Source of the DNA: a virus
Length of the DNA: 28,410 nt
IMG/VR virus record: IMGVR_UViG_3300032288_000639
Location: 1 to 28,410 of that record
Strand: one strand, 5' to 3'
Part shown: positions 8,793 to 28,410 of the stretch, piece after piece
Layout: each line of letters opens with the position of its first letter
How positions within the stretch are numbered: position 1 is the first letter of the stretch
Notes under the pieces: model-generated
Told to the model about the DNA's origin: nothing
Databases searched by the model: none
The model's input: the letters and a program-made list of their open reading frames with translations, nothing else
Translations under genes and position numbers: made by a program

Positions 8793-8831
8793 AAACAATT
8801 TGATAAGTGGTAAATAAGAAGGATAAGCGGT
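8793..8831 (-). repeat. 39-bp intergenic repeat, copy A
   Basis: Matches 22971-23009 at 34 of 39 positions with no gap, sharing the ends AAACAAT and AAGGATAAGCGGT (plus strand). It lies immediately downstream of the terminase coding end and 45-90 bases upstream of the -7 box at 8741. A TTATCC/GGATAA motif occurs in both orientations around it (GTTATCCT at 8755 and GGATAAGCGG at 8821). The shared position relative to a promoter points to a regulatory element. Confidence 0.6.
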
Positions 8832-9991
8832 TATGCAAGGCTATATCTGCCTGAACCACGCTTAGAATTATAACTTGACCACGCTAATGCTAATGCCATA
8901 ACGCAGTCATCGTGGAATCCGCTAGGTGCGGAATAACGAACTCCTGTACTTGTGAAGATATACTCAAAGATATTTAATTCATCAACAATAACCCCATCAG
9001 GATATTTAATTAACTTTTGTTGTATCGCTGCAGATAAGCCTTCCATTAATTGTTGCTTACTAGAACTCGTAAACCTTAAACCCTCAATCATCATTCCGCT
9101 TCTTTGCAAGTCCTCTAATACAGGGTCGCCTACTCCTGTACTATCAATTAAAGTATGTGCTTTAGGCAGACGCTTAATGTTTTCCTTAGTATTATGCCAA
9201 TCCATTTGAAACCTATCAAAGTAACAAACTTGCCCTAAATCATCTAATCCAACAATAACTGTCCAATCGACAGACTTAGCAATATCTATTCCGAATGATA
9301 CAGGCGGTCTTCCGCTTATTGGTGCAATACATTTTCTAATAAACTCGTTGCCGAAAGGGTTTGCGCTATTCTCTGCAGGGTTTGCCATATACTCCTGCTC
9401 AAATACGATATGTGGTAATTGAAACTTAGCTGCATCAACTTCTTCGGCAGGTATTGTAGGGTTGTCGTATGTAGTAAACTTATAGCTTTCCCAATCCTTC
9501 TCCCCTCCTTTCATATATAGGCTATAAAAGTAGTTAGTACCCTTAGGAGTCGACAAGAATATTGCTCCCCCCTGATAGTCCGTAAGGGTAGGTCTTATAG
9601 AATTAAGCCACCCCTTCTCTAGGTCAGGAATAAATGATGCCTCATCTATAATAACCTTATGGAATTTTAAACCTCTAAAAGAATCAAGCCTTGTTCCTGT
9701 AAAGAACCTAATTTTTCCCCCTGTTCTAAATTCTATTATTAAATCCGACTTATTAGTCTTATAGCATCCGCTTGGTAAATGCTGAAGTAATTCCTCAAAG
9801 AATACTTTTGACAATAAATAGGTAGGTGTAACATAGGCAACAGACTTGCCCTGTAACGCTTCTTTAATTGCTATTACTTGCGACACTAAAGACTTACCCC
9901 ATCGTCTGCCGCACATTAAAACAATAAACCTGCTAGTCGATTCTAGTATAGGTAATTGCGTCTTATGTGGTTGGGGAAGTATTATTTCCAT
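8831..9991 (-). CDS. terL: Terminase large subunit
   Basis: 386 residues, the ATP-driven DNA packaging motor and headful or cos nuclease. The Walker A-like P-loop GRRWGKS is at residues 28-34, Walker B VIIDEAS at about 113, and the coupling motif STPKG at about 147. The RNase-H-like nuclease follows with GIDIAKSVD (about 236), IDSTGVGD (about 282) and HDDCVMALALA near the C-terminus. All key acidic residues are present, so it should be active. It overlaps the small subunit gene by 29 bp. The length is slightly short for the family but complete in both domains. Confidence 0.93.
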   Translation of the reverse strand: MEIILPQPHKTQLPILESTSRFIVLMCGRRWGKSLVSQVIAIKEALQGKSVAYVTPTYLLSKVFFEELLQHLPSGCYKTNKSDLIIEFRTGGKIRFFTGTRLDSFRGLKFHKVIIDEASFIPDLEKGWLNSIRPTLTDYQGGAIFLSTPKGTNYFYSLYMKGGEKDWESYKFTTYDNPTIPAEEVDAAKFQLPHIVFEQEYMANPAENSANPFGNEFIRKCIAPISGRPPVSFGIDIAKSVDWTVIVGLDDLGQVCYFDRFQMDWHNTKENIKRLPKAHTLIDSTGVGDPVLEDLQRSGMMIEGLRFTSSSKQQLMEGLSAAIQQKLIKYPDGVIVDELNIFEYIFTSTGVRYSAPSGFHDDCVMALALAWSSYNSKRGSGRYSLA

Positions 9992-10340
9992 AAGGCATAA
10001 ACTTAACTGTTATTGTGTTATCACTCGTAATGTCAATTTCAGCCTGTTCCTTGGGCTTTCCATAGACTCTAGTTAATAAGGTCTCAATAGAATATAAACT
10101 GCCCTTAACTAGGCTCTTATTCATAGCATTAGCTATTGTCTTTTCTAGTATGGTTGCATCAGGATTATCATAGACCGATTTAAGTTCTTCGCTATTCATT
10201 GACATCATAGCCTGTATCGTATCGTTAATTTCACTTAGCCTGTATCCTTGCGCCTTTAATGCAGTAACATACTTTCTAGGCCTTCCATTAGGATTGCCTG
10301 ACTGACCCTTTACGAAAGGTATTAAATGCTCTTTTCCCAT
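9963..10340 (-). CDS. Terminase small subunit (DUF5681-type)
   Basis: 125 residues. The N-terminal signature FVKGQSGNPNGRPRKYV (about 9-25) is the DUF5681 motif common in proteins encoded just before large terminases. The rest is helical with a short acidic tail. It overlaps the large subunit start by 29 bp, so the two are translationally coupled. The probable role is recognition of the packaging site on phage DNA. A regulatory DNA-binding role is less likely given its neighbour. Confidence 0.8.
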   Translation of the reverse strand: MGKEHLIPFVKGQSGNPNGRPRKYVTALKAQGYRLSEINDTIQAMMSMNSEELKSVYDNPDATILEKTIANAMNKSLVKGSLYSIETLLTRVYGKPKEQAEIDITSDNTITVKFMPYGNNTSPTT

Positions 10341-10344
10341 TCTG

Positions 10345-11001
10345 TTATTGTTCTGTTAATGATTGATTATATTTGTGTCTAATCTTAATCTGCTCCTTAG
10401 ACTCCCAAGCCTTTTTGTATTCCATATCTTCAAACAACTTGCTAAACCCTGTTATGTGTTTTAGTCTAAGTATCTCTTCCGTTTCCATTCCTAGTTCGTT
10501 ACATATCTCTGCATCCGACCAACCATTCTCTAGCATTTGAAACACCATATTTGACATACCTGTTACGCTATGCTTACCTCTTGCTCTATTGTGTCTAACT
10601 GTACTTGCCATCCTGTCGTTAATGTCCTTCTCAATAACTACAATAGGCAGACAACCATTATTTCTATCTAGGATGTCCTTATTTGATTTGCAGGTAAAGT
10701 ATCTATGAAAGCCATCGACAATAATGTACTTGTCTAGTATTTCGTCATAGATTGTAACTACAGGCTGCGTATAGCCATCGTGCTTAATAGAAGTATAAAG
10801 CAAACCCATTTCAATCTTTGCTACTGAATTAGGATTGTAATCGTTTGCCTGTACCTTGTTAATATCAACCCATCGAACTAGGTCAATAGGCTGCGTATTT
10901 ACAGGACTTAACTCTTTATGTATAAATTCTCTTAGGTCATAGATAAATTTCATTTTATCCTCTGCATTATTAAATGCCTCTTTTAGTTGTTCGTATATCA
11001 T
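10345..11001 (-). CDS. ParB/sulfiredoxin-fold protein, IbrB-like
   Basis: 218 residues. The N-terminal half has a ParB-like core with VDINKVQANDYNPN (about 46-59) and the box DGFHRYFTCKS (about 117), the GxHR-type nucleotide-binding motif. The C-terminal part (about 150-190, SNMVFQMLENGWSDAEICNELGM) reads as a helix-turn-helix. It overlaps the preceding PAPS-reductase-like gene by 4 bp. ParB-fold plus PAPS-reductase-fold is the arrangement of the E. coli IbrB/IbrA prophage-gene activators, so regulation or a joint nucleotide-dependent reaction is likely. It is not a partition protein in this setting. Confidence 0.75.
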   Translation of the reverse strand: MIYEQLKEAFNNAEDKMKFIYDLREFIHKELSPVNTQPIDLVRWVDINKVQANDYNPNSVAKIEMGLLYTSIKHDGYTQPVVTIYDEILDKYIIVDGFHRYFTCKSNKDILDRNNGCLPIVVIEKDINDRMASTVRHNRARGKHSVTGMSNMVFQMLENGWSDAEICNELGMETEEILRLKHITGFSKLFEDMEYKKAWESKEQIKIRHKYNQSLTEQ

Positions 11002-12152
11002 ATATATTTATTTTTAAGCATATGTCTTGATACCTTCCCCTTCTTGTATTTTCTCCAAGTGTCTACCTCTGGCCCACGCTCCCAATTACCAAGCTTGACA
11101 AAACCAAAGTCGTTAATAACAATTGACTGCACACATATCTTGTATAGCTTATCAATGTTTTTCATTGTACCATACTTTGCATCTAACTTCTCGAACTTCT
11201 TTTTAAAGATAGGTATTGATGATTCGGGTAATAGCTTCTCGGTTAGGAAGTCTCTGTACTCTTTCCAATCCTTAAACATATATGGTAACTCTTTTACAAA
11301 AAAGTCGTCTTCACCGAATTTACTTGCCGTTGATACCCCTTGCAATCTTTCGGTTAGTTTGTTATATGTATTCCCCTCAATTTCTTGTAGAAAGAATAAT
11401 TGCTTAATAGCGGTTTCGTGATGCAGGTTACTTACACGCATATCTTGTATGGCATAACCATACTGATACATATAATCATAAACCTTGCAATACTGCCAAC
11501 TATGTTCGTGTATCGCTTTCCATACGTCTGTATAACTCCAATCGTATAATGGATAAAAAGTATAATGTTCGTCTGCTTTGTTTAGGGTCTTGCCCCAAGT
11601 AATATCTTTATATGTTACCCCATTAGTTAAAGCCATTGCTCGTGTTGGACTTTCCTCTGCTCTAACACCGGCTAGGTATGCTGACTTTTGTTTCGGGAAT
11701 TGATGCTTAAAGAAATTAGGGAAGAACTTATAGAACTCATCTAAGTGCGAAGAATTCTTGCTTGTCGCAAATGTATTCTCTTTAATAGAAATAGGGTCTT
11801 TTTCACGCATCCATTTTTGTCCTTCCCCCCAAGCCTCTAAGCAATCTGTACTTGTTGATGTTGAGTTTGTAATCTTAAAAGGTGCTTGTATCCAATAAGG
11901 TTCTACGTCTTCTCTGTACATTACGTCTTTTACATAGTCGATTGTAAACTGCCACTCTGCCTCTTGGTCAACAAACATAACCTTTTGAGGCAGCCTGTTT
12001 CTTTCTTTAGCTACTTGCAATGTAAGATTTAGAACACAAGTGCTATCTTTCCCACCACTAAAACCAACAACGACATTATCAAATTCATCAAATATCCTGT
12101 TAATCCTAGCTATGGCTTCTTGTAATACACTTGCATCTTTATAGAATTTCAT
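10998..12152 (-). CDS. PAPS-reductase-family protein, IbrA-like
   Basis: 384 residues. The PP-loop SGGKDS is at 32-37 within VVVGFSGGKDSTCVLNLTLQ, so it should bind ATP or an adenylated nucleotide and form adenylate intermediates. VDQEAEWQFTIDYV (about 61-74) continues the adenine-nucleotide alpha-hydrolase fold. The long C-terminal extension with many aromatics (YDWSYTDVWKAIHEH) is like the extra domain of IbrA-type proteins. True sulfate-assimilation enzymes are shorter and end in a Cys motif that I do not see. It is coupled to the IbrB-like gene by a 4-bp overlap and to the GNAT gene by another. Confidence 0.8.
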   Translation of the reverse strand: MKFYKDASVLQEAIARINRIFDEFDNVVVGFSGGKDSTCVLNLTLQVAKERNRLPQKVMFVDQEAEWQFTIDYVKDVMYREDVEPYWIQAPFKITNSTSTSTDCLEAWGEGQKWMREKDPISIKENTFATSKNSSHLDEFYKFFPNFFKHQFPKQKSAYLAGVRAEESPTRAMALTNGVTYKDITWGKTLNKADEHYTFYPLYDWSYTDVWKAIHEHSWQYCKVYDYMYQYGYAIQDMRVSNLHHETAIKQLFFLQEIEGNTYNKLTERLQGVSTASKFGEDDFFVKELPYMFKDWKEYRDFLTEKLLPESSIPIFKKKFEKLDAKYGTMKNIDKLYKICVQSIVINDFGFVKLGNWERGPEVDTWRKYKKGKVSRHMLKNKYI

Positions 12153-12520
12153 ATTGTTAATTTAATATTTGTACATATTTTATATTCTCTTTCGATTATT
12201 GCGCCTCGTTTTAAATACTCTTTAATTGACATTTTAGTACAAGCTGCAACAACCTCTGTACAACCATTAACTTTTGCCTTCCATATACTAAAGTCCAATA
12301 ACTCTTTAAAGTAACCATTACCCCTATATTCTTTAAATATGTAATGATTGTTAAACTTAGCCTTCTTGCCGTAATATTGAATACTTGTAAAACCTATTAA
12401 CTTATTATCTATGAAACCTCCATAATATTCTGCATTACTAGAATAACCTGCCATACCTTCCTGTTTCGTTTGAGCAATATATGGTTGTATTAATTCTAAA
12501 TTTATTGCAGATATTATCAT
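12149..12520 (-). CDS. GNAT-fold acetyltransferase-like protein
   Basis: 123 residues, compact. A beta-rich middle (YYGGFIDNKLIGFTSIQYYG) leads to the acetyl-CoA loop EYRGNGYFKELLDF (about 65-78), which carries the R-G-N-G pyrophosphate-binding pattern, followed by the helix and VAACTKMSIKEYLKRGA, a classical late GNAT segment. It starts exactly where the methyltransferase gene ends (4-bp overlap). The substrate is unknown. Being between a DNA methyltransferase and a PAPS-reductase-like gene makes nucleic acid or nucleotide modification plausible; a GNAT-fold DNA modifier is known in Mom of phage Mu, but I see no direct Mom signature. Confidence 0.7.
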   Translation of the reverse strand: MIISAINLELIQPYIAQTKQEGMAGYSSNAEYYGGFIDNKLIGFTSIQYYGKKAKFNNHYIFKEYRGNGYFKELLDFSIWKAKVNGCTEVVAACTKMSIKEYLKRGAIIEREYKICTNIKLTI

Positions 12521-13140
12521 TTTGATAATTTATGTATGGTAGTTTTTAATCTTGTAATGTTTAATTCGTTACCATAAAAATTCATCCCAACAGATTTAGC
12601 CATTTCTGCAGTCATTCCAAGTCCACAACAAGGGTCTAATACTATTCCATCTTTTACAATGAATGGTTCTACTGCATCTATAACACACTTTAACCCTGTT
12701 CTTCCTGTAATTTTATTGATTATAGTATTAATATCCCCATTCCAATTATAGTCTTTAGTTTTAAAAAAATGTAATTGATGTGGTAACATTTTACTTCCTG
12801 ATTTATAGGTAATTTGCGCAACACCTAAATGGTCTAAATTATGATTTATTCCTATTGAAATTAAATCCTTTTCCCATTTAATCCCATATTCAATTAATAC
12901 TATTCCTGAAGTATGCTTTGCTGCTAAATTAAATATTTGATTTAAAAAAGATATGTAATCAATATTTACAGGCTCAATATTATTATGTCTTTTATTAATT
13001 GTTTGCCAATAGGTAATATTGCCCTGACCCCAAGGTGGGTCGGAATAAAAAATATTTGCTTTTTTGCCTTGCATAAGATTATCTATGCCTAACATTACAT
13101 TTTGATTTTGTACTCTATGATTATTAATACTTGTTATCAT
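12517..13140 (-). CDS. DNA methyltransferase, N6-adenine or N4-cytosine type
   Basis: 207 residues. The catalytic motif IV DPPW is at 34-37 and the S-adenosylmethionine motif I DPCCGLGMTAEMA at about 169, followed by GNELN. Catalytic motif before the cofactor motif is the beta-class order. It is short and without an obvious target-recognition domain, so specificity may come from a partner. No restriction endonuclease gene is adjacent, so self-protection or regulation is more likely than a full restriction system. It overlaps both neighbours (17 bp and 4 bp). Confidence 0.8.
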   Translation of the reverse strand: MITSINNHRVQNQNVMLGIDNLMQGKKANIFYSDPPWGQGNITYWQTINKRHNNIEPVNIDYISFLNQIFNLAAKHTSGIVLIEYGIKWEKDLISIGINHNLDHLGVAQITYKSGSKMLPHQLHFFKTKDYNWNGDINTIINKITGRTGLKCVIDAVEPFIVKDGIVLDPCCGLGMTAEMAKSVGMNFYGNELNITRLKTTIHKLSK

Positions 13141-13420
13141 ATGTATTTGTTTTTAATGCTCTATTAATTAAAATAGGTTGTTCGCCAACCTTTTCCATAG
13201 TCCAATACTTATATTCCCCGAAATAAAAGTAATTAAAATGTGTACTAAAAAACCTTTCTTTAACTAAATTTTGTTTCATATGCGCTACAAACCTATTGTA
13301 CTCTTCCTTATCTAGGCTTCTATTAAATAAACAATACTCGTGCGGTGTCGTCTTTGCATATGTTTTAGCGAATATCCATTCGTTATTGTTTATGAATTGT
13401 TGGATTTCTGTATCTATCAT
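13124..13420 (-). CDS. Small protein of unknown function beside methyltransferase, 98 residues
   Basis: Contains NNEWIFAKTYAKTTPHEYCLF near the N-terminus (about 11-31), then a helical part and FNYFYFGEYKYWTMEKVGEQ (about 62-81). I recall short proteins with this KTYAKTxPHEYxL and YKYWTM pattern next to methyltransferases in mobile elements, but I know no biochemical role. The conserved His, aromatic and acidic residues suggest an enzyme or a nucleic acid-binding domain. It sits between the ParB-like gene (4-bp overlap) and the methyltransferase gene (17-bp overlap), consistent with a shared function. Confidence 0.6.
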   Translation of the reverse strand: MIDTEIQQFINNNEWIFAKTYAKTTPHEYCLFNRSLDKEEYNRFVAHMKQNLVKERFFSTHFNYFYFGEYKYWTMEKVGEQPILINRALKTNTYDNKY

Positions 13421-13998
13421 ATTGTTACTTTAAACTCATTGCCACAAGCAGGACAAATTACGTCTGCGTGTTTTGATTCTTGTATAAACTTATCTGCAAG
13501 TTCTTGCGCCTTCTTTAATATATCGTTATCGGTTACGTCTTTATGATTTGTTTGTGGTTCTAAAACAGGTTGATAGTCAGGCACTTCCCATTGAATTACG
13601 TCCCACTCTTTTAGTGATGCGCTATCCCAAGCGTTTGCTAATGTATCCCAATCAAACTCCCCTGCGTTTGTATTGTCTTTAATCATAAATTCATCTTGTT
13701 GCTCTTTAGACCAACCCGATGTGTATATTACAGGAATTTCTTTATAACCAAGTTCTTTAGCAGCCTTATACCTCATATTGCCTCCAAGTATAATCCCTTC
13801 TTCATTTACAACAATAGGTCTTGCATTTAACATTTCAGGAAATTCTGTTAAACTTTTAACAAGCTTTTTAAACTTAGCATCTTTTATTAATCTTGGATTG
13901 CTAGGATGAGGCTTAATGTCATTAACCTTAACGACCTTGACCTCTGTAGTTGCGTTCTTTTCTGTCATTTTTATTGTATGATTTTTTTGCTTTGCCAT
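13417..13998 (-). CDS. ParB-like nuclease-domain protein
   Basis: I take ATG 13998 as start (MAKQKNHTIKM); a GTG at 14034 would add 12 residues. The ParB-like core shows VNDIKPHPSNPRLIKD and later the box GGNMRYKAAKELGY. The C-terminal tail holds a single CPACGNEF knuckle, too little for a full zinc site alone but possible in a dimer. In many phages such a ParB domain is fused in front of a methyltransferase; here the methyltransferase is a separate gene with a 98-residue gene between. Likely DNA binding or a partner of that enzyme. Confidence 0.72.
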   Translation of the reverse strand: MAKQKNHTIKMTEKNATTEVKVVKVNDIKPHPSNPRLIKDAKFKKLVKSLTEFPEMLNARPIVVNEEGIILGGNMRYKAAKELGYKEIPVIYTSGWSKEQQDEFMIKDNTNAGEFDWDTLANAWDSASLKEWDVIQWEVPDYQPVLEPQTNHKDVTDNDILKKAQELADKFIQESKHADVICPACGNEFKVTI

Positions 13999-14036
13999 TC
14001 TTTCTTTTACCAAAGTTAACCTTTTTTGAATCACTT

Positions 14037-14294
14037 TTAACTTTTGCCATTTAATTTCTCTTTATGTTTGCTTTTTAAATATTCCATATGTGTCTTAGTG
14101 TCCCCCATAACAACGTGGCATTGCCTACATAATGCCATAAGATTTTCTATTGTATCTGCATTTTTATTACCGCCCATACCCCTCGCTTCTATGTGATGTA
14201 TATCTACTGCTTTTGCTCCGCAGGATTCACAAGGTATAAAATCTTCTATTCCATATTCAAAATAATCTAGGTATAATTTAGTGTGTTTCTTCAT
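14037..14294 (-). CDS. HNH endonuclease
   Basis: 85 residues with a complete HNH/zinc-ribbon core: CESCGAK (about 23-29), DIHHIEARGMGG (about 31-42), a later Asn, and LCRQCH (about 54-59). The HH pair and the two CxxC motifs are the zinc and metal-binding sites. Small HNH proteins near terminase genes often assist DNA packaging or cut DNA in maturation. Here it is several genes away from the terminase. A free-standing homing role is possible but less likely given the short, domain-only length. Confidence 0.85.
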   Translation of the reverse strand: MKKHTKLYLDYFEYGIEDFIPCESCGAKAVDIHHIEARGMGGNKNADTIENLMALCRQCHVVMGDTKTHMEYLKSKHKEKLNGKS

Positions 14295-14460: not shown

Positions 14461-14987
14461 TATTTTTTATCTATTTGCTTCAGTTTATTTATTGCCCATT
14501 CAATACCTGATGTGCCACCCCAAGCATCCCACATTAAACCACCGCAGCCTTCACTATATGGTACGTCTTTGCTTTGTTGATGTCTTTTAAATGATGCCAT
14601 CCTTGCTATCGTATCCCTAGATATGTTTTCTCTTTTAGCTAATTGATTTGCCCTAGCCTTTCCTACTGCAGTTCCGCAACCACCCCAACCATTTTCATCT
14701 GCCCATTTCAATGCACGTTTAGCATTATTAGAAGCAGATTCAGGATAGTCATTATAAGTTTCTGCAAGTTCTTGACTAACAGGAACACAATTTGGTGCAC
14801 CATCAGGTTTTAACCCAATAGGTTCGTAACCTTCCCAACAAGGATTCGGCTCTATATCTAATGCAGCCTTAGGCAATAAACCTGATTTAATAGCTGACCA
14901 TACTTTTTCAGCCTTTTCTTGTGTGTCATAAATACAACTTCCTGTACCTATTCTATACTTTCCGTTGCTACATTTACTTATTGGCAT
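14460..14987 (-). CDS. Cys-rich phage protein with a ParA-like structural repeat region, function unknown
   Basis: 175 residues in two parts. The N-terminal part (MPISKCSNGKYRIGTG..., NPCWEGYEPIGLKPDGAPNCV) carries several cysteines and looks like a small disulfide- or zinc-linked domain; despite the label I used, I see no ParA motif. The C-terminal part (about 85-170) has NDYPESASNNAKRALKW, GTAVGKARANQLAKRE and GLMWDAWGGTSGIEWA, a pattern I recall in phage head-associated proteins, sometimes fused to proteases. A virion or maturation role is possible. It overlaps the glycosyltransferase gene by 14 bp. Confidence 0.5.
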   Translation of the reverse strand: MPISKCSNGKYRIGTGSCIYDTQEKAEKVWSAIKSGLLPKAALDIEPNPCWEGYEPIGLKPDGAPNCVPVSQELAETYNDYPESASNNAKRALKWADENGWGGCGTAVGKARANQLAKRENISRDTIARMASFKRHQQSKDVPYSEGCGGLMWDAWGGTSGIEWAINKLKQIDKK

Positions 14988-15978
14988 AACCTATTAATTT
15001 ATTATATATAGCAAATCTTTTGTTATTTATGATGTGTAGGTTAAAATTTGTATTGCAATAGTCAAATAGCTTTTGACCATACTCTGTCCTTGCAGCCTCG
15101 TCAAATGTTAATAGCTTAATCCATTTATACCAATCTTGTTGGTTGTTTACATAGCATACAGGCATATCTTTATAAGGATGCACGTTGCTAACTATTGCAG
15201 GATTTTTCTTTGCAGCAGTCTCTAATACCTTTAAATTAGACTTCATTGCTCCAAACTTATTTTCGACTAAAGGGATAATGCTAATGTCAGAATCTGCGTA
15301 TGCACCCATATATTTGCTTACTTCCGAATAGTCGTAGATAGTCGGGTTAAGTTTTAAGCCATTGGTAAATACTCCAATCATTCTATCCCAAAGATGCTTT
15401 TCGCCTAGATTATACCCTGCTATAATTGTTCTAACAGGAAAATTAATTTTCTTCATTGGGTTGCGCAGGATGTCAATATCAGGAACGTGAGTGCCTGACC
15501 CTGCCCAAAACAACCTTACTAAATCCGATTCTAATTTATTGTCCTGAAATTGTTCTTCTCCGTATGGCAAAGCGTTTGGCAATATTTCTACATTAGGATT
15601 GTACTTGTATATTTCTTCGGCTAACCTTTCGTGTGTACAGGTACAAAGGTCTGCAACTCGCATATACTCTATAATAATATCTGTAATATTGCTTTCTTTA
15701 TATCTCTGCGCTAAAATGTGCGAAGGCGGCAAATACCAATAATCGTCATTATCAACAATTAATTTAAAGTTATATTTAATTTTCATTTCGACTAATAGCT
15801 TTGCATCTGTTGAAGCTAAAAATCTGTTAAATATTACTATGTCATAGTTATTGTCAAATACTACTTCATTAATTGTATCTGTAATTAAGCAGTAGTCTTT
15901 TTGCATATTAACTAATGGCATCATAATTCTATGATAACCGACACCACTAAACTTACTTGTTATTGCTAGTATTCTCAT
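14974..15978 (-). CDS. Glycosyltransferase, GT-B fold type (family 4-like)
   Basis: 334 residues. The N-terminal Rossmann half opens MRILAITSKFSGVGYHRI, a GG/GVGYHR-type nucleotide-sugar-acceptor start. The C-terminal half has VRLFWAGSGTH, then PVRTIIAGY and PLVENKFGAMKSNLKVLETAA (about 237-257), the region where GT4 enzymes hold the E(x7)E donor-binding site. It would move a sugar from a nucleotide sugar to a glycan or protein. It follows a family 2-like transferase (4-bp overlap), so the two probably act in sequence on one glycan, either the host surface or the virion. No membrane segment. Confidence 0.78.
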   Translation of the reverse strand: MRILAITSKFSGVGYHRIMMPLVNMQKDYCLITDTINEVVFDNNYDIVIFNRFLASTDAKLLVEMKIKYNFKLIVDNDDYWYLPPSHILAQRYKESNITDIIIEYMRVADLCTCTHERLAEEIYKYNPNVEILPNALPYGEEQFQDNKLESDLVRLFWAGSGTHVPDIDILRNPMKKINFPVRTIIAGYNLGEKHLWDRMIGVFTNGLKLNPTIYDYSEVSKYMGAYADSDISIIPLVENKFGAMKSNLKVLETAAKKNPAIVSNVHPYKDMPVCYVNNQQDWYKWIKLLTFDEAARTEYGQKLFDYCNTNFNLHIINNKRFAIYNKLIGYANK

Positions 15979-23694: not shown

Positions 23695-24428
23695 TATTTG
23701 TCAGTTTTAGAATGGTATTTATTACAAGTATTGCATTTGTATTGTATCCTAGTTAAGCCTGTCGCAGTAATTACCTTATTGTTTCTTATTAGGTCATCGC
23801 TTCCACATTCAGGACAACTGCCTCTATCGTGTCCAAATGCTACTCCATAATGTGTTTTAGGTTCTATATGCAAAGATAAAGCCTTGTGAACTTGCTCCAA
23901 TAATATTACATCTTTTTTGCAGTATTTAATCATCTTCTCCATTGCAACCTTATCCTTTTTTAAAAGAATGTCCTTCCATAAAGAATACTCTGTTTTAATC
24001 TTTTGCCCTAACCCTAGATAATCTGCAATATAATTAAGCCTGTTTGAATTAAACCTAAACTTTTGCCTAGCTACTTTTAATGTATCAATCGTTAAATACT
24101 TTGGGAACATATCTATTTTATGAAACAGGCATCTAGTTCTAATCCAAGCTAAATCAAATTTGTCGCCATTATGCCCTACTAGTTCCGTTGCAGTATTTGC
24201 TACTTCTATAAACTTTTGTAGCATTGCTTTGTCATTCTGCTTTGCATCCCATTGTAAAGCGTAAACTTCTTTTTCTTCTTCCCACTTATAACATATACAG
24301 ATGATTGCCCTCTCTTGTATAATGTTTGAATAGTCTATATTTTTTTTGTATCCTGCTTCCCAAAATAAACCGATATTAGGACTTGTCTCAATGTCAAAGA
24401 AAAGCCTTCTGCGTTTTGTTTTTAGCAT
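23694..24428 (-). CDS. DnaQ-like 3'-5' exonuclease with zinc ribbon
   Basis: 244 residues. The three DEDDy motifs are present: Exo I FFDIETSP (Asp12, Glu14), Exo II VGHNGDKFDLAWI (about 88-100), and Exo III YCKKDVILLEQV (Tyr at about 168, Asp at about 172). The C-terminal part (about 205-240) carries CPECGSDDL and CNTCNK, a four-Cys zinc ribbon. So it is likely an active exonuclease with a nucleic acid-binding tail, of the RNase H-like 'ribonuclease H_2' kind. It may serve DNA recombination with ERF or proofreading. One-base overlaps with both neighbours. Confidence 0.82.
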   Translation of the reverse strand: MLKTKRRRLFFDIETSPNIGLFWEAGYKKNIDYSNIIQERAIICICYKWEEEKEVYALQWDAKQNDKAMLQKFIEVANTATELVGHNGDKFDLAWIRTRCLFHKIDMFPKYLTIDTLKVARQKFRFNSNRLNYIADYLGLGQKIKTEYSLWKDILLKKDKVAMEKMIKYCKKDVILLEQVHKALSLHIEPKTHYGVAFGHDRGSCPECGSDDLIRNNKVITATGLTRIQYKCNTCNKYHSKTDK

Positions 24429-24886
24429 TATATTTGTTTGTAGTTAGTAATTCCATTTGTTTTAGTTGCTTTTAAAATCTGTTTTCTATGTCTGACTGAA
24501 TAAGAAACGTGCACCCAATCAGGATTATTGTCATTACCGAATTCCCATATTAATTGGTCAAATGGTAACTTATCTTTTATATAGTTAAATATATCTGCAT
24601 TACTAACTCCATAACTTGTACCATCCATATCTATATCAATAGCTTGTCCTAATGAGTGCTGCGATGTATTAGACCCACCTATTTTGGCATTTAATTCCTT
24701 TGACCTATACCCACTTGAAATTAAGATAGGTGTCCTAAAATTGGCTCTAATAGGCTCAAATATGTTTTCTGCTAATAGCTTTAAATTAGCTATATGTTCA
24801 GGTGGTGGCATATTAGGTATGCCATTACGTTTTGCCGATTCGCTACGAATTAACTCTGCTAGCGTAAGATGTTCAGAAATGACCAT
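24428..24886 (-). CDS. Endolysin, M15-type D-Ala-D-Ala carboxypeptidase-like
   Basis: 152 residues. The catalytic zinc motif SQHSLGQAIDID gives His77 and Asp84, the late DWVHVSYS gives His126, and Glu115 is the likely catalytic base: the M15A layout. The first part (HLTLAELIRSE) is the usual N-terminal start of these enzymes. It would cut peptide bridges of the host peptidoglycan at lysis. No signal peptide, so export depends on the holin. It overlaps the lipoprotein gene by 28 bp. Confidence 0.88.
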   Translation of the reverse strand: MVISEHLTLAELIRSESAKRNGIPNMPPPEHIANLKLLAENIFEPIRANFRTPILISSGYRSKELNAKIGGSNTSQHSLGQAIDIDMDGTSYGVSNADIFNYIKDKLPFDQLIWEFGNDNNPDWVHVSYSVRHRKQILKATKTNGITNYKQI

Positions 24887-26994: not shown

Positions 26995-28410
26995 TTATTT
27001 AGCCATAATCATTGCTTTTAATTCTTCTATTTGTGCTTGTTGTTCTTCTATTTTAGACATACACTCTTGTAATACTTTAATGGTAGCGTGATGCAAGTCA
27101 GCAGTATAAATTGCTTTTAATGGTTCATCATCACTTACAATTTCGTTTCCATCTTCATCTAATTTTGGCTTATTATCCCATCCATCAATATCAACAAATT
27201 CTGGTGCTACTGATTCAACTTGTTGAGCAATTACACCAATATTGTAATCATCGTGTGTTTGGTCTTTGTATTTAAATTTAACAATCTCAATAGCTTTAAA
27301 CTTATCCCAATAAGATTCTAAAGGAATAATATCTTTTTTAGTTCTTTCATCTGATAGATTTGTATCATTTGCTTGATAATTAGAAATACCACCATTTGAT
27401 TTTACTCCAAATCTTATAGTAGTTGAATCTAGTCCGTAGAACATCCAATTGTCACTGTTATTTGGACTTGCACCCGGATAATGAACAATAATACCATAAG
27501 GTTCAGAAGATGCTACATTTGAAAAATAAGTAGTCCAATTACCAGATGTATTTACTCTCATTTCGTGATAACCAGCAGAACTTGCATAGTTGCCACTTGA
27601 AGACATTTTAGTAAAACCACCCGATGTGATTCTCATTCGTTCGTTATCGTTAGTATAGAATAACATATCAGCATTTAGCTGATTAACAATGAAAAAATTT
27701 CCATTTGCACCTCCATATCCAAAATAACCCATATCGCCTGAACCATTTGCAAATTGAATATAGTTTCTACCTGCAGCAATAGATGTTTGTAAACGAAGGT
27801 TTTGTCCACCTGAAGCAGAACTTTGTAAATGCAATAAAGAACTTGGACTACTCGTTCCGATTCCAACTGAGCCACCATTTTCGCACATTAAAACATTATA
27901 ACTAAAGTTGTTTGTTCTAAATATAGCTTGTCCATTATTAGCTTCTACTCTAAAACCAAAAGCACCCGTTCCTCCTCCGCCTTTTATTGTTAATATATCT
28001 GCTGATAATGTTCCGTTGTTAGCATTAAATAAAGAACTACCTCCAGCAGTTACACTACTTGAGAATGTAGCAGCACCAGTAGAAGCAATTCTAAATCTTT
28101 CAGTAATTGTAGCTGTTGAGCCAGATGTACCTATTGGAGCATTTGAGAAAATTAACTCTCCATTATAATTATATAAACGACCTATACCCTCTACTGAATT
28201 AATATATTTAAGAAGATTACTCGCATCGTAATATCCATTTGAAATTAAACCTATACTTGTTGCATTTGACTGACCAAACAATGTACCTCCTTGACCACTT
28301 GCTCCAATATAAAGACTTACAAAAGCACCACCGCTTGTAATAATTGGACTAAATCCAACTCCTATGTTATTACTAAACGTAGCACTTGTACCACTTAAAG
28401 CACCAGTAAG
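26995..28410 (-). CDS. Tail fibre with C-terminal S74 chaperone (partial, N-terminus outside the window)
   Basis: The frame is open to the window edge, so the first visible residues (LTGALSGTSATFS...) are internal. The visible part is Gly/Ser/Asn-rich and repetitive (ATFSSSVTAGGSSLF and similar), a typical beta-helical or triple-spiral shaft. The last about 115 residues are the S74 intramolecular chaperone: LSDERTKKDIIPLES with the Ser/Lys dyad, FKYKD, NIGVIAQQVE, and a terminal coiled coil EEQQAQIEELKAMIMAK. After trimerisation the chaperone cuts itself off. This protein most likely sets host recognition. Confidence 0.88.
   Translation of the reverse strand, partial: LTGALSGTSATFSNNIGVGFSPIITSGGAFVSLYIGASGQGGTLFGQSNATSIGLISNGYYDASNLLKYINSVEGIGRLYNYNGELIFSNAPIGTSGSTATITERFRIASTGAATFSSSVTAGGSSLFNANNGTLSADILTIKGGGGTGAFGFRVEANNGQAIFRTNNFSYNVLMCENGGSVGIGTSSPSSLLHLQSSASGGQNLRLQTSIAAGRNYIQFANGSGDMGYFGYGGANGNFFIVNQLNADMLFYTNDNERMRITSGGFTKMSSSGNYASSAGYHEMRVNTSGNWTTYFSNVASSEPYGIIVHYPGASPNNSDNWMFYGLDSTTIRFGVKSNGGISNYQANDTNLSDERTKKDIIPLESYWDKFKAIEIVKFKYKDQTHDDYNIGVIAQQVESVAPEFVDIDGWDNKPKLDEDGNEIVSDDEPLKAIYTADLHHATIKVLQECMSKIEEQQAQIEELKAMIMAK

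Follow-up and report, generated by a model that had tools for sequence, protein, structure and literature searches.

What does a phage do with six overlapping genes, encoding two ParB-fold proteins, a PAPS-reductase-fold enzyme, a methyltransferase, an acyltransferase and a 98-residue protein, that stand just ahead of its terminase genes? The question is raised by the virus record IMGVR_UViG_3300032288_000639 of IMG/VR, a 28.4-kb fragment that was analysed over its full 28,410 nucleotides and is called the window below. A first-pass annotation, made from the letters alone, had proposed that these genes may make an unusual DNA modification or protect DNA before packaging, and this proposal is now largely supported at the genomic level by a terminase-based slot control, by synteny in actinophages and by tailoring enzymes that are swapped between loci. 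The six genes probably form a dedicated phage DNA-modification locus of an undescribed type, whose most probable function is to modify phage DNA ahead of packaging. Comparison of loci supports a putative fixed core (IbrA, IbrB, p98 and a shared ParB1) with one to three exchangeable tailoring enzymes, which in the window are a DPPW methyltransferase and a GNAT protein. The modification would probably disguise phage DNA from bacterial defences.

All six open reading frames (ORFs) lie where they had been placed, joined by short overlaps directly ahead of the terminase genes, and each family call was borne out by profile searches. Transcription runs along the minus strand as one unit, in the order ParB1, p98, DPPW methyltransferase, GNAT, IbrA, IbrB, TerS and TerL. 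From ParB1 to IbrB the successive overlaps are 4, 17, 4, 4 and 4 bases; a gap of 4 bases separates IbrB from TerS, and TerS and TerL overlap by 29 bases. Active-site motifs are intact across the module (SGGKDS, GVRAEESPTR, DGFHR, DPPW, DPCCGLGMT and GNELNITR). The features are as follows.

13417..14034, minus strand: ParB1, a ParB/Srx-fold protein of 205 residues with a GTG start and a C-terminal CPxC motif; matches ParB_N (1.9e-6, Pfam), phrog_620 (1.3e-30) and the N-terminal part of the ParB-methyltransferase fusion phrog_498 (7.8e-29).
13124..13420, minus strand: p98, a 98-residue protein of a module-specific family without a name.
12517..13140, minus strand: DPPW methyltransferase, a compact beta-class amino-methyltransferase-like protein of 207 residues; tailoring slot 1.
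12149..12520, minus strand: GNAT acyltransferase-like protein of 123 residues; tailoring slot 2; matches Acetyltransf_1 (6.6e-6) and phrog_1249 (7.4e-9).
10998..12152, minus strand: IbrA, a PP-loop ATP pyrophosphatase of 384 residues with PAPS-reductase/CysD fold and DUF3440; core.
10345..11001, minus strand: IbrB, 218 residues, with a ParB/Srx domain (DGFHR) and a helix-turn-helix-like C-terminal part; core.
9963..10340, minus strand: TerS, candidate terminase small subunit preceding TerL; matches DUF5681 (1.5e-9).
8831..9991, minus strand: TerL, terminase large subunit and anchor of the slot; matches Terminase_6N (8.7e-9), Terminase_6C (1.7e-5) and phrog_2 (3.8e-43).

How widely does this arrangement recur? 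A search with the IbrA protein gave 43 viral loci and a profile search 80, on partly shared contigs, and once near copies and truncated neighbourhoods had been dropped, 58 non-redundant viral loci complete on both sides were kept. They follow a common plan of ParB1, p98, one to three enzymes, IbrA, IbrB, TerS and TerL. IbrB comes directly after IbrA in 55 of the 58 loci, a ParB1-fold protein is present in 56, p98 in 42, and at least one tailoring gene (methyltransferase, glycosyltransferase, GNAT, S-adenosylmethionine (AdoMet) decarboxylase-like or 2-oxoglutarate oxygenase-like) in 55. Chance clustering of six genes is ruled out by the recurrence of their order in dozens of diverged viral contigs, together with the same-terminase control described below.

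The enzymes in the middle of this plan are exchanged freely. They are about 120-275 residues long, and at least six classes are represented: methyltransferases (DPPW and others), glycosyltransferases, GNATs, AdoMet decarboxylase-like proteins, a cytidylyltransferase-like protein and a family called c7. One locus (L004) is 90-94% identical in DNA to the window on either side of the methyltransferase gene and carries in its place (between 13154 and 12520) a 192-residue glycosyltransferase (phrog_854). Mapped onto an IbrA tree of 59 rows, the enzyme-class combinations show at least 35 changes (glycosyltransferase presence 15, methyltransferase presence 18). The terminase family next to IbrA changes at least three to four times on the same tree, which indicates that the module also travels between phage backbones. 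Two apparent associations among tailoring genes are not claimed: an exclusion between SpeD and glycosyltransferases (0/10 versus 32/48, p=1e-4), for which a tree-wise pairwise test has only three independent contrasts, and a co-occurrence of c7 with glycosyltransferases (8/9), which fails after tree correction.

If the module modifies DNA, what occupies the same place in related phages that lack it? Control loci were gathered by terminase instead of by IbrA, and the slot was taken as the region between ParB1 and TerS. The TerL family that contains the window's TerL (c8) gave 31 non-redundant loci with enough upstream sequence, 8 of them with IbrA and 23 without, and an unrelated TerL family (c4) gave 32, with 19 and 13 respectively. 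Known DNA-modification genes were found in 18 of the 23 IbrA-less c8 slots versus none of the 8 with IbrA (p=1.6e-4), and in 10/13 versus 0/19 in family c4 (p=4e-6); for both families pooled the counts are 28/36 and 0/27, one of the 28 (L249) being counted on a different PP-loop protein without an established role. The IbrA-less slots hold C5-cytosine methylase, Mom, Tet/JBP with amino acid:DNA transferase, TET-associated glycosyltransferase, a relative of glucosyl-hydroxymethylcytosine glucosyltransferase, or a 7-deazaguanine pathway with a DpdA-like transglycosylase (match scores PF00145 9e-75, Mom PF25680 2e-43, Tet_JBP 4e-29, ADDT 1.6e-18, TAGT 6e-17, PTPS/QueD 2e-24, DpdA-like phrog_887 2e-42 and phrog_842 3e-67). 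Conversely, Tet_JBP, ADDT, TAGT, DpdA and Que genes are found in 0 of the 58 IbrA loci and in none of the window proteins tested. The comparison thus supports the view that the module sits in a dedicated modification slot, flanked by a ParB-fold gene on one side and the terminase on the other, where it appears to replace known base-modification pathways.

The same control separates the parts of the locus. No p98 was detected in the 36 IbrA-less loci, and the tailoring families are rare in their slots. ParB1 is present in 30 of the 36, which rules it out as a module-specific part. The ParB-like gene, listed in the first-pass annotation as a member of the set, is truly at the locus but adjoins many other modification pathways; by these genomic comparisons it is a general partner of the modification slot, and p98, IbrA and IbrB are the set-specific core. 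Two further loci are worth recording. In L249, the 281-residue ORF before TerS, beside ParB1, encodes a PP-loop protein (phrog_424) with several cysteines and represents a second unexplained candidate modification. The Fusobacterium phage phiFN37 (L052) carries IbrA-IbrB and, a few kb off, a ParB gene with a DpdA-like queuine transglycosylase; it breaks the mutual exclusion, but outside the terminase slot.

Cultured actinophages show the same slot with different contents. In the mycobacteriophage Athena (Pipefishvirus), ParB is followed by two small genes and then by IbrA, IbrB and terminase. Its relatives (Bclasvirinae and related phages), whose terminases are related too, begin with a homologous ParB (gp1) and carry a pathway between it and the terminase. 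That pathway is a set of 7-deazaguanine genes (TGT/QueC/D/E/FolE) in Ares, a deazaguanine set in the Gordonia phage Sour, Tet_JBP/ADDT/P-loop kinase in Hangman and Tet_JBP/TAGT/PIG-L in Rich. Ares is a Rosebushvirus and stands in for Rosebush of the same genus, whose DNA was measured to contain dPreQ0 at about 28% of G (PMC6884629). Together with the slot control, these actinophage slots are the reason for holding that the module most probably acts on phage DNA before packaging. In addition, the Microbacterium phages Hendrix and Leaf carry a glycosyltransferase, a GNAT, a p98-bearing methyltransferase and IbrA at one genome end; gene 1 of Hendrix is IbrB, and the sister phage Rasputia has IbrB, two ParB1-type genes and terminase at the opposite end. 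The methyltransferase and p98 had given zero or weak matches by tblastn in cultured phages, and a hidden Markov model (HMM) then found the relatives in Leaf and Hendrix.

Several points weigh against this interpretation. The control and co-occurrence counts are uncorrected for shared ancestry, although two unrelated terminases give the same outcome, the HMMs for known modification genes were built from few sequences and could miss divergent members, and 8 of the 36 IbrA-less slots have no recognised modification gene. p98 is missing from 16 of the 58 loci, and the actinophage cases are few. Many cultured phages (Flavobacterium, Streptococcus) carry IbrA-IbrB without recognised tailoring genes, so that the pair may act there alone or with unrecognised genes. 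An enterobacterial plasmid pair is distant (29% identity), with p98 and tailoring genes absent beside the plasmid copy read. The evidence from slot and neighbours speaks to the class of pathway and not to its substrate, and no nucleoside analysis of an IbrA-bearing phage was found in the literature.

Other explanations have to be weighed against the same evidence. The six genes could be two unrelated neighbours, a conventional orphan DNA methyltransferase accompanied by ParB, next to an IbrA-IbrB pair that has another job; ParB-methyltransferase fusions are common (phrog_498) and ParB1 occurs without IbrA in the control slots. This is improbable: p98 and the tailoring genes accompany IbrA and are absent or rare without it, glycosyltransferases and other enzymes take the place of the methyltransferase without loss of IbrA and p98, and searches started from p98 recover IbrA neighbours. 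It is very unlikely that the product modified is a protein or RNA of packaging or the virion rather than DNA. GNATs, glycosyltransferases, methyltransferases and oxygenases can act on proteins and the genes share a unit with terminase, but in the slot the module and pathways that act on DNA (Tet/JBP, ADDT, Mom, C5-methyltransferase, DpdA) exclude one another, across two terminase families and in the actinophages. A comparably small chance is given to a regulatory module, in which IbrA and IbrB would be co-activators of prophage gene expression as they are named in E. coli, where IbrAB switches on prophage eib genes (Sandt et al. 2002, as cited in PMC10434257). The ParB domain and helix-turn-helix-like layout of IbrB would suit that role; the alternatives found in the slot, however, are enzymes and not regulators, the PP-loop of IbrA is intact, and the enterobacterial plasmid homologues are remote and stand alone. 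Regulation and DNA modification are also compatible, since modification itself could alter expression.

Two further explanations turn on the fold of IbrA. Phosphorothioation, with IbrA as a sulfurtransferase of the DndC/SspD type, would draw on the shared PAPS-reductase fold and a weak DndC profile match (7.8e-11 in PADLOC; 31.7 bits in NCBIfam, where the cut-off is 290 bits). DndC requires cysteines for its cluster and sulfur relay (PMC10853773), and an alignment of 26 IbrA sequences has no conserved cysteine column, the best holding a cysteine in 11 of the 26; DndC-type chemistry is therefore disfavoured. No DndD/DndE or SspB/SspC partner was recognised among the neighbours tested, the six module proteins giving no PADLOC match to them and the proteins tested from the 28-kb fragment none by Pfam. 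Phosphorothioation is highly improbable here, and the caution of the first-pass annotation on this point was well placed. A role in auxiliary sulfur metabolism, in which IbrA would be a phage CysH that raises sulfate assimilation, agrees with the Pfam PAPS_reduct match and the usual annotation of such genes, but IbrA scores far under the CysH cut-offs (TIGR00434, 19 versus 165.1 bits; PRK02090, 25.1 versus 154 in NCBIfam), the catalytic cysteine is not conserved, and IbrA is nearly always paired with IbrB and modification genes; it is scarcely credible.

What, then, could a DNA-modifying module built on IbrA do? IbrA matches PAPS_reduct (1.5e-16) and DUF3440 (6.3e-6) in Pfam and phrog_2302 (4.2e-83), and IbrB matches ParB_N (7.5e-4) and phrog_2159 (1.5e-73); by profile and by adjacency the two are members of the IbrA/IbrB families. 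SGGKDS is invariant in the IbrA alignment and the nearest solved sequence to the IbrA profile is CysD (1zun). PP-loop enzymes cleave ATP into AMP and pyrophosphate; in most cases a carbonyl or acid group is adenylated and a nucleophile then attacks it, as in TilS, NadE and QueC. From this chemistry, the CysD relationship and the lack of conserved cysteines, we infer an adenylation-type activation, in which IbrA would spend ATP to adenylate a group carried by a base or by its precursor; in that detail the chemistry is rather doubtful. IbrB, with its ParB/Srx nucleotide-binding fold, and p98 would be the partners of IbrA in installing a chemical handle, and tailoring enzymes would then decorate it, with methyl and acyl groups expected in the window and a sugar in L004, while those of other relatives would glycosylate, hydroxylate or possibly aminopropylate it. 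ParB1 would probably bring the enzymes to DNA, as a targeting partner common to many such pathways. The module genes share a transcription unit with terminase, which suggests that progeny DNA would be modified late, before packaging, and so be protected from host restriction. As a tentative but quite possible picture, IbrA, IbrB and p98 may install a previously unknown nucleobase handle on which phages swap sugar, acyl, methyl and aminopropyl decorations through single tailoring genes.

The individual proteins add some detail. No model in Pfam, PHROGs or NCBIfam matched p98, whose family comprises 72 distinct domains, 19 of them within longer fused proteins; P, H, Y, W and N residues are nearly invariant in the family. 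Its predicted structure is confident (predicted local distance difference test, pLDDT, 86); the PDB gave no clear match (best Foldseek E 0.53; best VIA-align Z 4.4, to Ku, which does not exceed background), and a resemblance to one unnamed viral predicted structure, A0A516LRX9 (template-modelling score, TM, 0.81-0.85), does not reveal a function. The methyltransferase matches N6_N4_Mtase at 3.1e-5 and 24.5 bits, slightly under the Pfam cut-off of 26.7 bits, and has no separate target-recognition domain. Motif IV precedes motif I (DPPW at residue 34, DPCCGLGMT at 169, GNELN at 190), an order kept in the family alignment that fits a beta-class N6-adenine/N4-cytosine DNA methyltransferase (PF01555), and DNA methylation is predicted. 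The window GNAT matches ordinary GNAT models alone in Pfam and not Mom (PF25680). c7 is a probable Fe(II)/2-oxoglutarate oxygenase because its model (pLDDT 93.5) folds as a double-stranded beta-helix whose closest matches are proline and aspartyl hydroxylases, which are 2-oxoglutarate hydroxylases, and HxD...H is invariant in the family. In L260 a 267-residue ORF with a repeated cupin-like look stands between ParB1 and IbrA in place of the usual tailoring genes, possibly a further enzyme class.

How does such a locus relate to known systems? The thymine and cytosine hypermodification loci of Tet/JBP-ADDT-kinase and Tet/JBP-TAGT type share the ParB-to-terminase slot and likewise combine a core handle with variable decoration, but they are founded on a Tet/JBP oxygenase and their genes are absent from IbrA loci. 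In L233, L254, Ares and Sour the 7-deazaguanine pathway (FolE/QueD/QueE/QueC/DpdA) occupies this slot beside the ParB partner, and it too has a PP-loop enzyme, QueC; its base, however, is made beforehand and exchanged by DpdA, and such genes are absent from IbrA loci. Dnd/Ssp (DndC/SspD) and BrxP similarly pair a PAPS-reductase-fold PP-loop enzyme with a ParB-superfamily protein, whereas the IbrA loci have no conserved IbrA cysteines and no DndD/E or SspB/C partner was seen, tailoring enzymes being found instead. Mom is a GNAT-fold enzyme of the same slot in L280 and L361, and the window GNAT lies outside its family in another neighbourhood. The CmoA-CmoX-CmoY carboxymethylcytosine pathway has a similar handle-then-decorate chemistry but different founding enzymes, a C5 carboxymethyltransferase and an AMP-forming ligase, and ParBc neighbours with an unexplained role have been reported for it (PMC12783734). 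E. coli IbrA/IbrB belong to the same families with the same adjacency (DUF3440/phrog_2302 and ParB/phrog_2159) and are named as expression co-activators. By the tests run, the predicted module falls outside the Dnd/Ssp, CysH, Mom, Tet/JBP and deazaguanine families.

Phage DNA hypermodification is a known class, in which, as far as the searched literature shows, core enzymes based on IbrA are undescribed. No paper linking IbrAB with DNA modification, and no earlier report of the module, was found among open-licence PMC papers, and some overlap with the 2013 survey of Iyer et al. may exist; the only role stated for these families is co-activation of prophage genes. If the interpretation is true, a widespread phage DNA-modification system would have at its core proteins that are at present assigned to PAPS reduction, auxiliary sulfur metabolism, expression co-activation or possible virulence; on the more tentative picture of swapped decorations, it would be a combinatorial DNA coating shared by phages from several bacterial phyla and possibly by haloarchaeal elements. 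Dozens of cultured phages should then contain modified DNA, so the question is testable now; those for which it is predicted are Mycobacterium Pipefishvirus, Microbacterium Rogerhendrixvirus, the Flavobacterium FCL-2 and 6H groups and Streptococcus Moineauvirus. It also offers a discovery rule: since the interval from a ParB-fold gene to the terminase houses the base-modification pathway of many phages, other unknown genes of this slot are candidates. New DNA modifications matter for restriction escape, phage therapy and enzyme tools.

Further observations concern IbrA, IbrB and the surroundings of the module. In a scan of a genome collection, cellular genomes seldom carried the window's IbrA clade. 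PMC4541368 discusses phage IbrA/IbrB as possible virulence factors through name transfer from E. coli; the gene neighbourhoods of the phage genes point elsewhere. A haloarchaeal plasmid, from Actinarchaeum halophilum (L364), has an IbrA (41%) together with another gene of the PAPS-reductase family, an IbrB-type gene and a DPPW methyltransferase relative. Beside IbrB, five loci (L022, L026, L028, L029 and L133), with terminase mostly of family c4, carry an inverted pair of an AIG2-like gamma-glutamylcyclotransferase (~150 residues) and an ORF of 340-370 residues. In the window, a small HNH endonuclease gene (14037-14294) ends 2 bases before the ParB1 gene, and upstream of the module (14974-17065) a hexapeptide acyltransferase (PF00132, 8e-21) accompanies two ORFs that resemble glycosyltransferases; these genes could supply sugars for, or be part of, a surface or DNA decoration pathway. 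Usual phage genes follow: an ERF recombinase (21477-22022), an endolysin-like M15 peptidase (24428-24886) and an S74 chaperone-bearing protein (26995-28281).

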